A DNA stretch of 64,000 nucleotides from Promethearchaeota archaeon (GTDB taxonomy: Archaea > Asgardarchaeota > Lokiarchaeia > Sigyniarchaeales > SOKP01): contig JAGXNS010000004.1 of the NCBI GenBank assembly GCA_019894855.1, positions 1 to 64,000 of the forward strand, written 5' to 3'. This document shows, one piece after another, positions 9,192 through 59,910 of this stretch. The translations under genes and the position numbers were made by a program. How positions within the stretch are numbered: position 1 is the first letter of the stretch; each line of letters starts with the position of its first letter. The notes under the pieces were generated by a model. That model searched no databases. It was given only the letters and a program-made list of their open reading frames with translations, and was not told the DNA's origin.

Positions 9192-10511
9192 ATGTTCCAT
9201 CAAAAAATCTTTATCTTTGAATTCGTCTCAGGAGGAGGATTTAATCAAGTTGATATCCCTTCGTCTTTATTTTGCGAAGGGTATGCCATGTTGAGGACAA
9301 TTATAGAGGATTTTAAGAATTTAGGTTTTCACGTTACTACTCTATTGGATTCTAGGATTAAATTTTTATCCCATTATATGAAAGCAGATGTAATAAAATC
9401 TGTTGAGTTGGTAGAAGATTATTTGCAAAAATATACCACATGCGTAAGGAATTCTGATTTTTGTTTTGTAATTGCACCCGAATTCTCAAATGTTCTCTAT
9501 AATCTTACAAAAGTTGTTAAAGAGAATAAGAAGAAATTATTAAGTATAGATTTAAATGGTGTAAAGCTCGGAGCGTCTAAGCTAGAAACTTATAAGTTCT
9601 TTATTGCGAATGAAATAAATACTCCGAAATCATATAATATCCCCTTTAATGGAAGAATTTTGGATTTAGATTTTATCCTTCAAAAATTTGATCAACTAAA
9701 TAGTTCCATTGTAATTAAACCTGATGATGGAGTAGGATCAGAATTAATTTTTTATTTCGAGAAAAAAGATGAGATATTACATTTTTTTGAAAGTTCTAAC
9801 AAAATAACAAATACAAATAGAAAATATATCCTTCAAGAATATATTGAAGGCGATCCTATGAGTGTTTCAATCATCAATGATCATCGACCTCTTGAAAAAC
9901 CAGTCGAAAATGGTCCTAAAATTCTAAGTATCAACGCTCAGAATTTACAAATAACGGACCCTACTATGGATTCTGTATACCTTGGAGGATTTACACCCGT
10001 AGATCAGTTTGAACAGTTAAAAGCTCAGATAGAAAATATATTAAAGGGTGTAGATTTATCAGCTTTCAAAGGTTATTTTGGAATAGATTTCGTGAAAAAA
10101 GTTGACAATTCTCTCTCTTTTATCGAGATTAATCCAAGATTAACTACATCCTATGTAGGAATTAGGAATGTCTTAGAATTCAATCCTATGGATTTACTTC
10201 TCACTCAAAAAAAAAAGTTACAAAATTACAAATTGATCCCTCATAAGTTTTCAGAGTTTACTCAAATAAAATTGAAATATGACGGAAAGTATACATTGGG
10301 AGAGATTAATAATTTAGTATTGCCTAAATTGATAAATCTAATTCCAGAAATAATAACTCCACCAATAATTATAGAAGGAGTAAACAAGAGTCAAGAAGCT
10401 TTTTATTCTTGTTTTATCGCGACAAAATCAAATGACAACCAATCGTCGAAGCATCGTATTTCTCAAATTAATCAGATTTTTAGCAAGTTTGATTTTAGAA
10501 TTACTAAATAG
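9192..10511 (+). CDS. ATP-grasp protein, MfnD-like (tyramine-glutamate ligase family)
   Basis: N-terminal IFEFVSGGGF, VIKPDDGVGSE, FIEINPRLTTSYVGIR; COG1821-like. Confidence 0.7.
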   Translation: MFHQKIFIFEFVSGGGFNQVDIPSSLFCEGYAMLRTIIEDFKNLGFHVTTLLDSRIKFLSHYMKADVIKSVELVEDYLQKYTTCVRNSDFCFVIAPEFSNVLYNLTKVVKENKKKLLSIDLNGVKLGASKLETYKFFIANEINTPKSYNIPFNGRILDLDFILQKFDQLNSSIVIKPDDGVGSELIFYFEKKDEILHFFESSNKITNTNRKYILQEYIEGDPMSVSIINDHRPLEKPVENGPKILSINAQNLQITDPTMDSVYLGGFTPVDQFEQLKAQIENILKGVDLSAFKGYFGIDFVKKVDNSLSFIEINPRLTTSYVGIRNVLEFNPMDLLLTQKKKLQNYKLIPHKFSEFTQIKLKYDGKYTLGEINNLVLPKLINLIPEIITPPIIIEGVNKSQEAFYSCFIATKSNDNQSSKHRISQINQIFSKFDFRITK

Positions 10512-11397
10512 CAATTAGAAGGACAATTGAAAATCCTCCATAGTGAACCAAGAGCGATATTATTAACGAGTTCTCTATTTTCAGTTTTTTATTAACGGCT
10601 AGGCTAAACATAAGTAACCACAGAGACCACACTTGAAATAAAATCATAAGTACATTGTCTAACACTCTAATATATGAAAAATCTAGCGAACCAGTTGAGG
10701 TTAAAATAAACCGCAACACTAAGTAAATATCTAAAGGAAAAAAAATTATCGCAAATGTCGCTAAAAACTTCAAGGTATTCTCTCTTTTCTTATAAATGAT
10801 TCGAGATAATCCTTCATTTACTAGAAAATAAAGAATGATATTTCCTATAAAAAAAAGAGCGAGTAGAAATTGAAAAATTGTTTCAGTGTTAGGAAATACC
10901 ATCAAGGATTCATTGAAAAATAGGAAAAAGGGGAATAAACCGTTCAAACCGCAAAAAATGGAGCCAATTATAGCAATCAGAATCGAAAATATTATTACAT
11001 TATATGTTCTCTTGTTCTCGTAGTTTATGTACGTTTTTGGAGTAAGAAACATTAATCCCTTTAATATTGGAGAATTGAATTCTTTTTTGCTGAACTCAAG
11101 TGTTATGATGTTATCTTTATTATCAATAAGCGAATTATAAGCGTGGAGTCCTAATTCCGTCAAATAATACTTTTTATCATCTTGTTGCGCAATTAAATTG
11201 GACAATGTATCTAGATGGTGGTAAATAGTACCTGTACTCACATTTAACTCTTTTTTAAGTTGAGTAAATGAAGAAAATTTATTTTCCGCTATGATTTTGA
11301 TTATCTTTCTTCTTAATTCGTGACTTAAAGCGTAGTAATAATCAGCCTCAGCGTCAACAGAAGCTTTTTTTTTATCTATTTCTTCTTTTTCCGAAAT
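10504..11397 (-). CDS. winged-helix (ArsR-like) transcriptional regulator with multi-TM C-terminal domain; likely ATT start
   Basis: Open frame upstream of the listed GTG encodes SEKEEIDKKKASVDAEADYYALSHELRRKIIKIIAENKFSSFTQLKKELNVSTGTIYHHLDTL, a complete wHTH; no ATG/GTG/TTG before the in-frame TAG. Confidence 0.75.
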   Translation of the reverse strand: MSEKEEIDKKKASVDAEADYYYALSHELRRKIIKIIAENKFSSFTQLKKELNVSTGTIYHHLDTLSNLIAQQDDKKYYLTELGLHAYNSLIDNKDNIITLEFSKKEFNSPILKGLMFLTPKTYINYENKRTYNVIIFSILIAIIGSIFCGLNGLFPFFLFFNESLMVFPNTETIFQFLLALFFIGNIILYFLVNEGLSRIIYKKRENTLKFLATFAIIFFPLDIYLVLRFILTSTGSLDFSYIRVLDNVLMILFQVWSLWLLMFSLAVNKKLKIENSLIISLLVHYGGFSIVLLIAI

Positions 11398-18927: not shown

Positions 18928-19028
18928 AATTCTGCAATTTCATAATAACTACACAATTTTTCATAGATTTTGTAATTATTTTTTTGTAATTATATATACT
19001 TGAAAAAACATAAATGAGCTGAAAAAAA

Positions 19029-19466
19029 ATCGCGAAGAAAGTATTAATTGCTGGTACATTTGATATAATTCATCCTGGACACTTATATCTAATCAATGAA
19101 GCTGCTAAAATGGGTGCTGTCTATGTAATTGTTGCTACTGATATGAATAGAAAATTATATTCTGGAGAAATTCCTATAATTCCAGAAGACCAAAGGTTAG
19201 AAGTTATCAAGAGCATAAAAAATGTAAAAGAAGCAAGATTGGGACGATCTGACAACGATACTCTCAAAACTGTTCAAGAGATTAATCCAGATATTATCCT
19301 TTTAGGTCCCGATCAAAAATATAATCTTGAAAAGCTGAAACGAGAATTAGGAAAAAAAGGGTTAAGTAAAATTATAGTAAAAAGGTTGGATACATACTAT
19401 GAGAAATATGATCTTCACTCCTCTAGCTTAATTAAGGAAAAAATAATAGAACCGTATAAGAATTAA
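19029..19466 (+). CDS. ribL: FAD synthetase / cytidylyltransferase, RibL-like; non-canonical start (ATC at 19029?)
   Basis: Extended frame AKKVLIAGTFDIIHPGHLYLINEAAKMG... restores the HPGH catalytic motif; LLGPDQKY, LHSSSLIKEKIIE; followed by a RibK-like gene; no ATG/GTG/TTG after the in-frame TGA at 19020. Confidence 0.85.
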   Translation: MAKKVLIAGTFDIIHPGHLYLINEAAKMGAVYVIVATDMNRKLYSGEIPIIPEDQRLEVIKSIKNVKEARLGRSDNDTLKTVQEINPDIILLGPDQKYNLEKLKRELGKKGLSKIIVKRLDTYYEKYDLHSSSLIKEKIIEPYKN

Positions 19467-19482: not shown

Positions 19483-20196
19483 ATGTCAAATAAAGAAGAG
19501 ATATCACCTGAAAACTACGCAAATTGGTTTGCTCTCTATCAACTTTGTAAGCATATAGAATATCGACAAACAATTAATATTAGTAGTGTAGAGTTTGGGA
19601 AACTTCTAAACTTGAGTCAGCAAACTGCTTCGAGAAGAATTAGCGATCTGGAGAACCTCGGGTGGATTAAGAGGAAAATTGAGAATAAAACCCAAAAAAT
19701 TGTCGTAACGAGAGAAGGAAGCGATGTAATGCTTTTAATGTATAAAAATTTAAAGGAAATTCTTGCAAGCATTGTTATCCTAGGTTCTGTTCAGAGTGGA
19801 ATAAAAGAAGGTGCTTACTATGTTGCAATTAAAGGATACTTTGAACAATTTCAAGATAAATTAGGCTTTTTACCATATAAAGGCACATTGAATTTAGAAC
19901 TCAACGATACGAATATCGACTTATTAAGAGAAAAACTAAAATATATTAAACCAGTGATTATTTCGGGATTTGAAGACGATAACTCAGAGCGAACTTACGG
20001 TAGCGTTCATTGCTATGATTGTTTTATATCTCGCTTAGATAATCATGAGAATAAAATTAACGCTGCAATACTTGATATACAAAGAACTCATCATGAAAAA
20101 AATACAATTGAAATCTTGGCTAAACCTTATTTAAGAGATTATTTTAACCTCAAAGATGGAGATAAATTAATAATTGAACTAAATTTTAGTAACTAA
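19483..20196 (+). CDS. ribK: CTP-dependent riboflavin kinase with N-terminal wHTH
   Basis: N-terminal MarR-like HTH; GYFEQFQDKLGFLPYKGTLNLEL and RTHHEKNTIEILAKPYLRDYFNLKDGDKLII (DUF120/RibK). Confidence 0.9.
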   Translation: MSNKEEISPENYANWFALYQLCKHIEYRQTINISSVEFGKLLNLSQQTASRRISDLENLGWIKRKIENKTQKIVVTREGSDVMLLMYKNLKEILASIVILGSVQSGIKEGAYYVAIKGYFEQFQDKLGFLPYKGTLNLELNDTNIDLLREKLKYIKPVIISGFEDDNSERTYGSVHCYDCFISRLDNHENKINAAILDIQRTHHEKNTIEILAKPYLRDYFNLKDGDKLIIELNFSN

Positions 20197-27519: not shown

Positions 27520-27653
27520 GTATCCATAATTATATCTTTTTTTTTTTAAAATAATACACTTCTTAATTTCATGATAAATTAACTGAGGCTTTTTTTTTAA
27601 ATAGCTGTCTTGGATTATTTTTTTATATCGAAAATTCTCCGGGATGAATACTT

Positions 27654-27983
27654 ATTTCTAAGGGTTTCATTAACAACAGGGATGCTGAAAATACACTCGA
27701 AACAATTAACCTAAATGGGACTAATCTTAATCTAAGTAAGGAAGAGATTAATGCCGGAAAAAATTCTTATAACATAAATAATCCTATAGATTTACTCATT
27801 CAAGAATGCGATATTGCTAAAAAAGAATATTTAACCATGGTGGAAGATATCCACGCTATCTTAAGCAATCGCGAAGAATTATCTAATTTTGAAAAGTTAA
27901 ATTATTGTAATAGCGAAAGACATTACATGAAACAATATCTAAAGCATACTATGATAAAAATAAATAGAATTTTGCCTGATTAA
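27654..27983 (+). CDS. possible small helical protein lacking a canonical start (ATT?)
   Basis: Open frame from 27648 to TAA at 27981; first ATG only at 27837; not in ORF track. Confidence 0.3.
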   Translation: MSKGFINNRDAENTLETINLNGTNLNLSKEEINAGKNSYNINNPIDLLIQECDIAKKEYLTMVEDIHAILSNREELSNFEKLNYCNSERHYMKQYLKHTMIKINRILPD

Positions 27984-37428: not shown

Positions 37429-37531
37429 TAGCCCAGAGGGGAATTATTCCTTCTATAAGAAGTTTTAAGAAGATTGAACCCCTGATCACTTGCTTCGCAG
37501 GCAAGCGTCTTATCCACTCGACTACTGGGCT
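37429..37531 (-). tRNA. tRNA-Arg (GCG) with apparent ~30-nt intron in the T arm (approx. 37444-37473)
   Basis: Reverse strand AGCCCAG-TA-GTCGAGTGGATAAGAC-G-CTTGC-CTGCGAA-GCAAG-TGATC-AGGGG-TTCAA[intron]TT-CCCCT-CTGGGCT-A; removing 30 nt leaves a 73-nt cloverleaf. Confidence 0.85.
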
Positions 37532-58643: not shown

Positions 58644-58854
58644 CTAAAAAACCCCAAACTTCTTTTTAATAGTATAACAATAATAAAAATTTTCGAATTT
58701 ATTTTTTTAGTATTGTTTTGTTTGATGCATTTGAATTTATCAATATGATACAAAAAAGTTAATTCTGGCACTGAAATCTTTAAAGATTCAGTATCATTTA
58801 ATAATGTAGTTAATTTATTTTCTCTAATTAGGATATAAGGAGATTGAGGATACA

Positions 58855-59910
58855 ATTACTATTGATAAGAAATGTATTGGATGGTTATGTAGTTATACAC
58901 CTATAGAACTCATCTATGCTGCAGATTTTCTTCCATATCGAATAATAGGCCATTCAAATCCGCCACAAAACGCAGATTCTTATATTCATCCTAATTTCTG
59001 TCAATTTATAAAGTCTACAATTGATGTGGCAATAGAAGGTGGATATGACTTTCTCGATGGAGTTATTTTCGTAAACTCTTGTGACGCAATGAGACGACTC
59101 CACGATGTTTGGAAAAGATATGTTCCGACGAAGTTTATTCATATATTAGATATTCCTATGGGTAATTTATCTTTAGGGTCAAAGTATTTCGAAAATGAGT
59201 TTCTAAAGCTTAGAAACGCACTCGAAAAATATACATCTTCCCCAATTAAAGAGGAGGATATTAAAAATGCCATTGATATTTTTAATAATTCTCGGTTATT
59301 GTACAACCAGCTGAACTCGTTAAGAATGGAAGATCCTCCCTTGATTACAGCTGGTAGTTTAATGAAAATCACATCAGATTTCTTCAAAGCCGAGCCAGAA
59401 GCTTGGAATGAAAGAACTAAACAGCTCATAAAAGAGATAAAATCGAAACCTACGAATGTAGAACAAAACAAAAACCCTAGAATCCTTTTATCAGGAAGTC
59501 CACTCCACGAAATAGAATTCATTAAATTTATAGAAGAGATTGGATTGAATGTTGTATACGAAGATCTTTGTACTGGAAGTAAATTTTTTGATTTGAATGT
59601 TAAGTCTTCCAATAATTTAATATCTTCATTAAGCGAAGCTTATTTAACAAGGACCCCATGCGCGCGAATGATGCAAATAAAAGAAAGGGCTGCTCAAATC
59701 ATAAAAACTTCAAAAAACTTCAATGTCGACGGAGTTATCCACCATTCCTTAAAATTTTGCGATACTTATTTGTATGATGTTCCTGCTTTGAAAGAAATCT
59801 TGGTAGAAAATGGATTACCGGTTTTATTCATCGAAAGTGATGGCGGGTTAGGAGATGTAAATCAAATTAGAACGAGAATTGAAGCCTTCTCAGAAATGAT
59901 TAAAAATTAA
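58855..59910 (+). CDS. 2-hydroxyacyl-CoA dehydratase / benzoyl-CoA reductase subunit; N-terminus extended, likely ATT start
   Basis: Upstream open frame gives TIDKKCIGWLCSYTPIELIYAADFLPYRIIGHSNPPQNADSYIHPNFCQFIKSTIDVAIEGGYDFLDGVIFVNSCDAMRR, the conserved HgdB/BcrB-type N-terminus. Confidence 0.85.
   Translation: MTIDKKCIGWLCSYTPIELIYAADFLPYRIIGHSNPPQNADSYIHPNFCQFIKSTIDVAIEGGYDFLDGVIFVNSCDAMRRLHDVWKRYVPTKFIHILDIPMGNLSLGSKYFENEFLKLRNALEKYTSSPIKEEDIKNAIDIFNNSRLLYNQLNSLRMEDPPLITAGSLMKITSDFFKAEPEAWNERTKQLIKEIKSKPTNVEQNKNPRILLSGSPLHEIEFIKFIEEIGLNVVYEDLCTGSKFFDLNVKSSNNLISSLSEAYLTRTPCARMMQIKERAAQIIKTSKNFNVDGVIHHSLKFCDTYLYDVPALKEILVENGLPVLFIESDGGLGDVNQIRTRIEAFSEMIKN

Follow-up and report, generated by a model that had tools for sequence, protein, structure and literature searches.

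Probable Shine-Dalgarno-Directed Initiation at a Conserved AUC Codon in the ribL Gene of a Lokiarchaeal Genome

Genomic Context of the ribL Gene

The ribL-like gene identified in the window, a stretch of 64,000 nucleotides from a Lokiarchaeal genome, is very probably translated from an AUC codon at position 19029 that is selected by a Shine-Dalgarno (SD) element. The local sequence reads ATG (19014), AGC (19017), TGA (19020), AAA AAA and ATC (19029), followed by GCG AAG AAA GTA TTA ATT GCT GGT ACA TTT GAT. The frame is bounded by the TGA at 19020 and the TAA at 19464, and its first ATG, GTG or TTG is the ATG at 19110; the ORF that begins there has 118 aa and lacks the HxGH catalytic motif, which is encoded further upstream as FDIIHPGH. 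An earlier sequence-only reading had described this frame without a canonical start ahead of HPGH, and both the sequence and the coordinates are as it described them. The positions of this and other features are collected in Table 1.

The protein encoded by the full frame matches PF01467 with 68.5 bits (cut-off 21), its nearest solved chain is 3glv, and none of the NCBIfam equivalog profiles matches it above cut-off. The best NCBIfam match of the adjoining RibK is NF010762. Given the PF01467 match and the neighboring CTP-dependent riboflavin kinase with its N-terminal HTH domain, FAD synthetase is the likely role of the RibL-like protein. As predicted from sequence, it shares PF01467, HxGH and the kinase neighbor with the archaeal RibL of the Methanocaldococcus jannaschii FAD synthetase type, and differs from it in the start codon and in the lack of an equivalog match. 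No Rfam element was matched 5' of ribL. The host bin is a fragmented Lokiarchaeal MAG of 2.5 Mb in 170 contigs. It contains a second ribL-ribK neighborhood (G000 contig C14; L188, L002), in which RibL is 94% identical and also has ATC; this copy probably belongs to a related strain within the bin (contamination 5%).

Table 1. Features of the ribL locus and candidate genes with near-cognate starts. Positions refer to the window unless a locus is given.
Feature	Position	Strand	Comment
ribL-like gene, proposed full frame	19029..19466	+	145 codons with ATC counted as the first; stop codon TAA 19464; archaeal FAD-synthetase type nucleotidyltransferase
ATC, proposed ribL start codon	19029..19031	+	Column has ATC/ATA/ATT/ACG or ATG in orthologues
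GAGCTGA, SD-like element holding the in-frame TGA	19016..19022	+	GAGGTGA with one mismatch
A6 spacer between SD and ATC	19023..19028	+	Genera share the 5-6 nt spacing but not the A-run
First in-frame ATG, gene-finder choice, behind HPGH	19110..19112	+	ORF reading
TATA-like stretch	18990..18998	+	Weak; distance to start differs among close relatives
RibK, HTH and CTP-dependent riboflavin kinase (DUF120)	19483..20196	+	ATG start; next gene downstream; PF01982 119.6 bits
ArsR-like winged-helix gene	10504..11397	-	No canonical start in first 58 codons; candidate ATT 11397 after GGAAGGGATC; Pfam
Small coding-like ORF	27648-27983	+	63 codons without canonical start; ATT 27654 lies six bases 3' of GGATGA; Pfam search without match
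2-hydroxyglutaryl-CoA dehydratase D-component gene (PF06050)	58828-59910	+	66 codons free of canonical starts; AGGAG followed by several candidate ATT codons
Ribosomal protein eS28 frame, candidate	L234 9239-9493	-	No ATG/GTG/TTG; GGTGA six bases before TTA and three before ATC
Ribosomal protein eS19, candidate	L245 18161-18661	-	No canonical codon until position 129; GGTG a short way 5' of ATT ATT AGC ATA

Conservation of the Start Column

Orthologues of RibL were found in 61 out of 65 genomes of the family. The 5' ends were taken from 64 ribL loci, of which 59 were compared after the removal of five second copies. No ATG, GTG or TTG precedes the conserved N-terminus in 20 of these 59 orthologues, which come from 19 genomes in three genera: 13 genomes of the same genus (plus the second copy in the host bin), together with three genomes each from genera g4 and g5. 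Nearly all 20 share one architecture, with TGA three codons 5' of the ATH codon. Outside the family, 0 of 69 archaeal RibL-like loci lack a canonical start. In every one of the 20 cases, the eighth codon ahead of the GTFD glycine reads ATC (9), ATA (9), ATT (1) or ACG (1), each a single base from ATG. In 12 other orthologues, ATG itself stands in exactly the column of the window's ATC 19029. The sequence-only reading had named a canonical start in close relatives as evidence that would count against it; these ATG codons share one column with ATH and thus support its choice of ATC 19029, which would yield (M)AKKVLIAGTFD. On the maximum-likelihood protein tree, the state without a canonical start requires six changes, at least three of which are forced by strongly supported branches, and it is therefore both inherited and recurrent.

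The onset of coding constraint coincides with this column. Variable sites within the closest clade are distributed over the three codon positions as 14/7/40 from ATC onward, whereas the 36 nt 5' of ATC show a flat 9/8/8 pattern, so the coding signature starts at or very near ATC; the two spacer codons between TGA and ATC do not lend themselves to a separate judgement. Two further loci deserve mention. In L030 (genome G022), the ribL leader almost matches those of the L017 group, but the L030 protein, which begins with ATG, takes a different place on the tree; the start codon thus appears to mark a recombinant junction. The more distant RibL of L154 has GTT as a possible near-cognate start.

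The Shine-Dalgarno Element

The only conserved block 5' of the ATH codon in the closest clade is GAGnTGA, located six bases away, with GAG and TGA invariant. The 3' end of the 16S rRNA of four genus members is GGATCACCTCCT (the anti-SD); its complement, AGGAGGTGATCC, matches the core GAGGTGA. GAGnTGA is one mismatch from this core, the complement of the genus 16S end GGATCACCTCC, and the GAGCTGA of the window would form six of seven pairs with the anti-SD at a spacing of 6 nt. Either GAGnTGA or AGGTGA is found 5-6 nt 5' of the start in three genera; AGGTGA occurs without mismatch in L027 and, before ATT, in G035, and one of the 20 orthologues, L023, has a poor SD only. The same geometry is known from aEF1A of Pyrococcus abyssi, GGAGGUGA-UUUAA-AUG, where five bases precede AUG (PMC6237735).

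With a spacing of six bases, the UGA of the SD element falls in frame by itself; at five bases, an SD-internal GTG, TTG or ATG does so, as observed in other relatives (AGGTGAATAAAATA, GAGTTGAAAAAAATA). Such in-frame codons within the element may mislead gene finders or may serve as actual starts.

In the mechanism that we propose, the 16S 3' end would pair with GAGCUGA (19016-19022) and set the AUC six nucleotides downstream in the P site. The SD duplex would position the 30S subunit, so that Met-tRNAi(CAU) could take the near-cognate AUH codon despite the third-base mismatch, and the first residue would be methionine. The upstream TGA would then be the tail of the SD element and not a recoded stop. 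An initiator-type tRNA-Met (CAU) of normal form is present in the genome (ARAGORN; L319). We also considered an initiator-like tRNA with another anticodon; in the ARAGORN search, a weak test of this idea, the confirmed tRNA has the normal CAU arm only. ARAGORN did not report the GAT-bearing arm of L321, and it missed several CAT arms as well. A weak tRNA match (34.6 bits) at 37460-37531 of the window, minus strand, was likewise not called and possibly represents an intron-bearing or degenerate tRNA. No match to aIF1 was obtained by a simple motif in the genome sequence examined.

Alternative Explanations

Several other routes to a RibL frame without a canonical start were weighed. Translation might begin one base out of frame at CTG, TTG or ATG (19019 in the window) and regain the RibL frame by polymerase or ribosome slippage on A8. 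This run is conserved in the nearest relatives, and slippage from CTG or TTG is conceivable in the closest clade; the L017 group has ATG-A8, yet in its member L018 an ATG-A7 stands in frame. However, the same TGA/ATH layout occurs with A5-A6 (L011-L014) or with no run at all (L025, L027, L121, L145), and in orthologues from other genera the alternative frame is shut after two codons (CTG ATA TAA, GTG ATA TAA). The ATT of the TatD gene described below likewise stands without any long A run. Programmed frameshifting would call for a slippery run that is conserved and for a frame that stays open upstream; in several orthologues the run is absent and the frame closed, and we consider slippage improbable. 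The prospects of stop readthrough or selenocysteine recoding from ATG 19014 through TGA 19020 are poorer still. The ATG AGC TGA string is shared by the window, genus g4 and a few close relatives; it fails as an explanation, since in many orthologues the TGA has no in-frame ATG ahead of it (TAG...TCG AGT TGA, ACG AGA TGA and others), and codon periodicity stops short of this upstream region. A sequencing or assembly error, or a pseudogene that starts at ATG 19110, is conceivable in a fragmented MAG, but we give it next to no weight, since an identical layout recurs in 19 separate genomes and HPGH and the whole frame are conserved with a coding pattern of substitutions. The sequence-only reading had kept both a base error and readthrough as alternatives, and the conservation data exclude them; ATG-AGC-TGA is limited to some of the relatives.

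The same reading had favored a leaderless or short-leader mRNA, in which ATC would be the 5'-terminal codon or nearly so. A TATA-like stretch does lie about 35 nt 5' of ATC, and by archaeal convention it would put the transcription start some 8-13 nt before this codon. The box as such is confirmed; its distance is not conserved, being about -35 here and about -29 in G002. While the TATA distance varies, the SD-like element is conserved in three genera, and the conserved upstream feature is thus GAGnTGA at ribosome spacing. The upstream gene has the same direction and is only ~100 nt away, which makes a longer ribL mRNA plausible. We regard a leaderless start as quite improbable. In our best reading, translation would be initiated under SD direction at AUC, AUA or AUU, with neither readthrough nor frameshifting.

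Near-Cognate Starts in Other Genes

Samples of 570 kb from the same genome and 651 kb from G002 were scanned for other genes lacking a start codon, and several conserved genes in them have no canonical start before the homologous N-terminus. The best case is a TatD-type DNase, in which TGA TAA TAA directly precedes ATT TTA ATT GAC GTT CAC in both genomes, with GGTGA six bases 5' of the ATT. The proposed TatD start column (L285-L314) has ATT or ATC in most of the genus and ATG in other genera; in many of the orthologues, an in-frame GTG sits inside the SD AGGTGA. The candidate ATT of the ArsR-like gene (Table 1) is shared by five close genomes, the present one among them. Further candidates include an aminotransferase, a PLP-dependent enzyme and a Gfo/Idh-like oxidoreductase. 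The ribosomal proteins eS19 and eS28 are striking but tentative candidates, with a possible start of eS28 at UUA or AUC. Two loci have other near-cognate codons at their possible starts, namely CTG or GTT in a response regulator (L225, about 4466, plus strand) and GTC after GGAGGTGA in an FAD-binding protein (L232, minus strand).

A tally around SD-like sequences gave a mixed outcome. When canonical neighbors were kept, the pooled wide set had 53 ATH codons out of 461 in frame vs. 70 out of 991, which is weakly significant. With GGTGA cores near ORF starts and no canonical codon in range, a restriction that was chosen after this weak result, in-frame ATH was found in 17 of 57 cases vs. 5.8 expected from codon use (p 3e-5) and vs. 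7 of 117 out of frame (p 4e-5). Genome-wide pairwise comparison of ATG/ATH columns between the samples gave too few informative pairs. Because of the order in which the restriction was chosen, the apparent use of ATH starts in multiple genes is less certain than the claim for RibL; as a rough estimate, the share of such genes is small, 1-3%.

Discussion

AUH initiation itself is known. In Escherichia coli, infC and pcnB have AUU starts, which are isolated bacterial cases, with infC autoregulated by IF3. They resemble the predicted ribL start in the SD-directed AUH codon, the initiator Met-tRNA and the conservation across relatives. They differ in that the archaeal start would be read with aIF1/aIF2, that AUC, AUA, AUU and one ACG occupy a single column, and that several unrelated genes appear to be involved with no autoregulation evident. 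The SD geometry is shared with archaeal SD-led GUG and UUG starts; those codons are first-base near-cognates, whereas here the third base of AUG differs, and once the second. A 2020 review of archaeal initiation (PMC7531240) names AUG, GUG and UUG as start codons and remarks that SD sequences seem not to be widespread in the cultured Lokiarchaeote. We found no report of AUH starts in Asgard archaea in the open-access literature, and their conserved, apparently multi-gene use in this group thus seems unreported there.

AUH initiation is inefficient in the systems studied, and aIF1 is reported to disfavor non-canonical starts in Sulfolobus, with a fidelity role also seen in Pyrococcus (PMC8211752, PMC6237735). 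Given this discrimination, either a low output of ribL is intended or the discrimination is relaxed in Lokiarchaea; we put forward both as proposals. Low or regulated ribL output is a guess on our part. To the idea that third-base discrimination is relaxed throughout the Lokiarchaeia we would give even chances; in that case, AUA, AUC and AUU, and perhaps GUU, GUC, UUA and ACG, would be routine starts behind a good SD in ~1-3% of genes, possibly including eS19 and eS28.

If so, a systematic slice of Asgard proteomes would be mis-annotated or truncated. In such genes, gene finders restricted to ATG, GTG and TTG either lose the catalytic N-terminus or choose a decoy GTG or TTG inside the SD element. 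Start-codon fidelity, which involves aIF1/eIF1 and aIF2, is a key step in the transition from archaeal to eukaryotic initiation, and the Asgard archaea are the closest relatives of eukaryotes. With a conserved AUH start in a cofactor enzyme, and hints that other genes also use such starts, the idea of relaxed start selection in Asgard archaea becomes directly testable.
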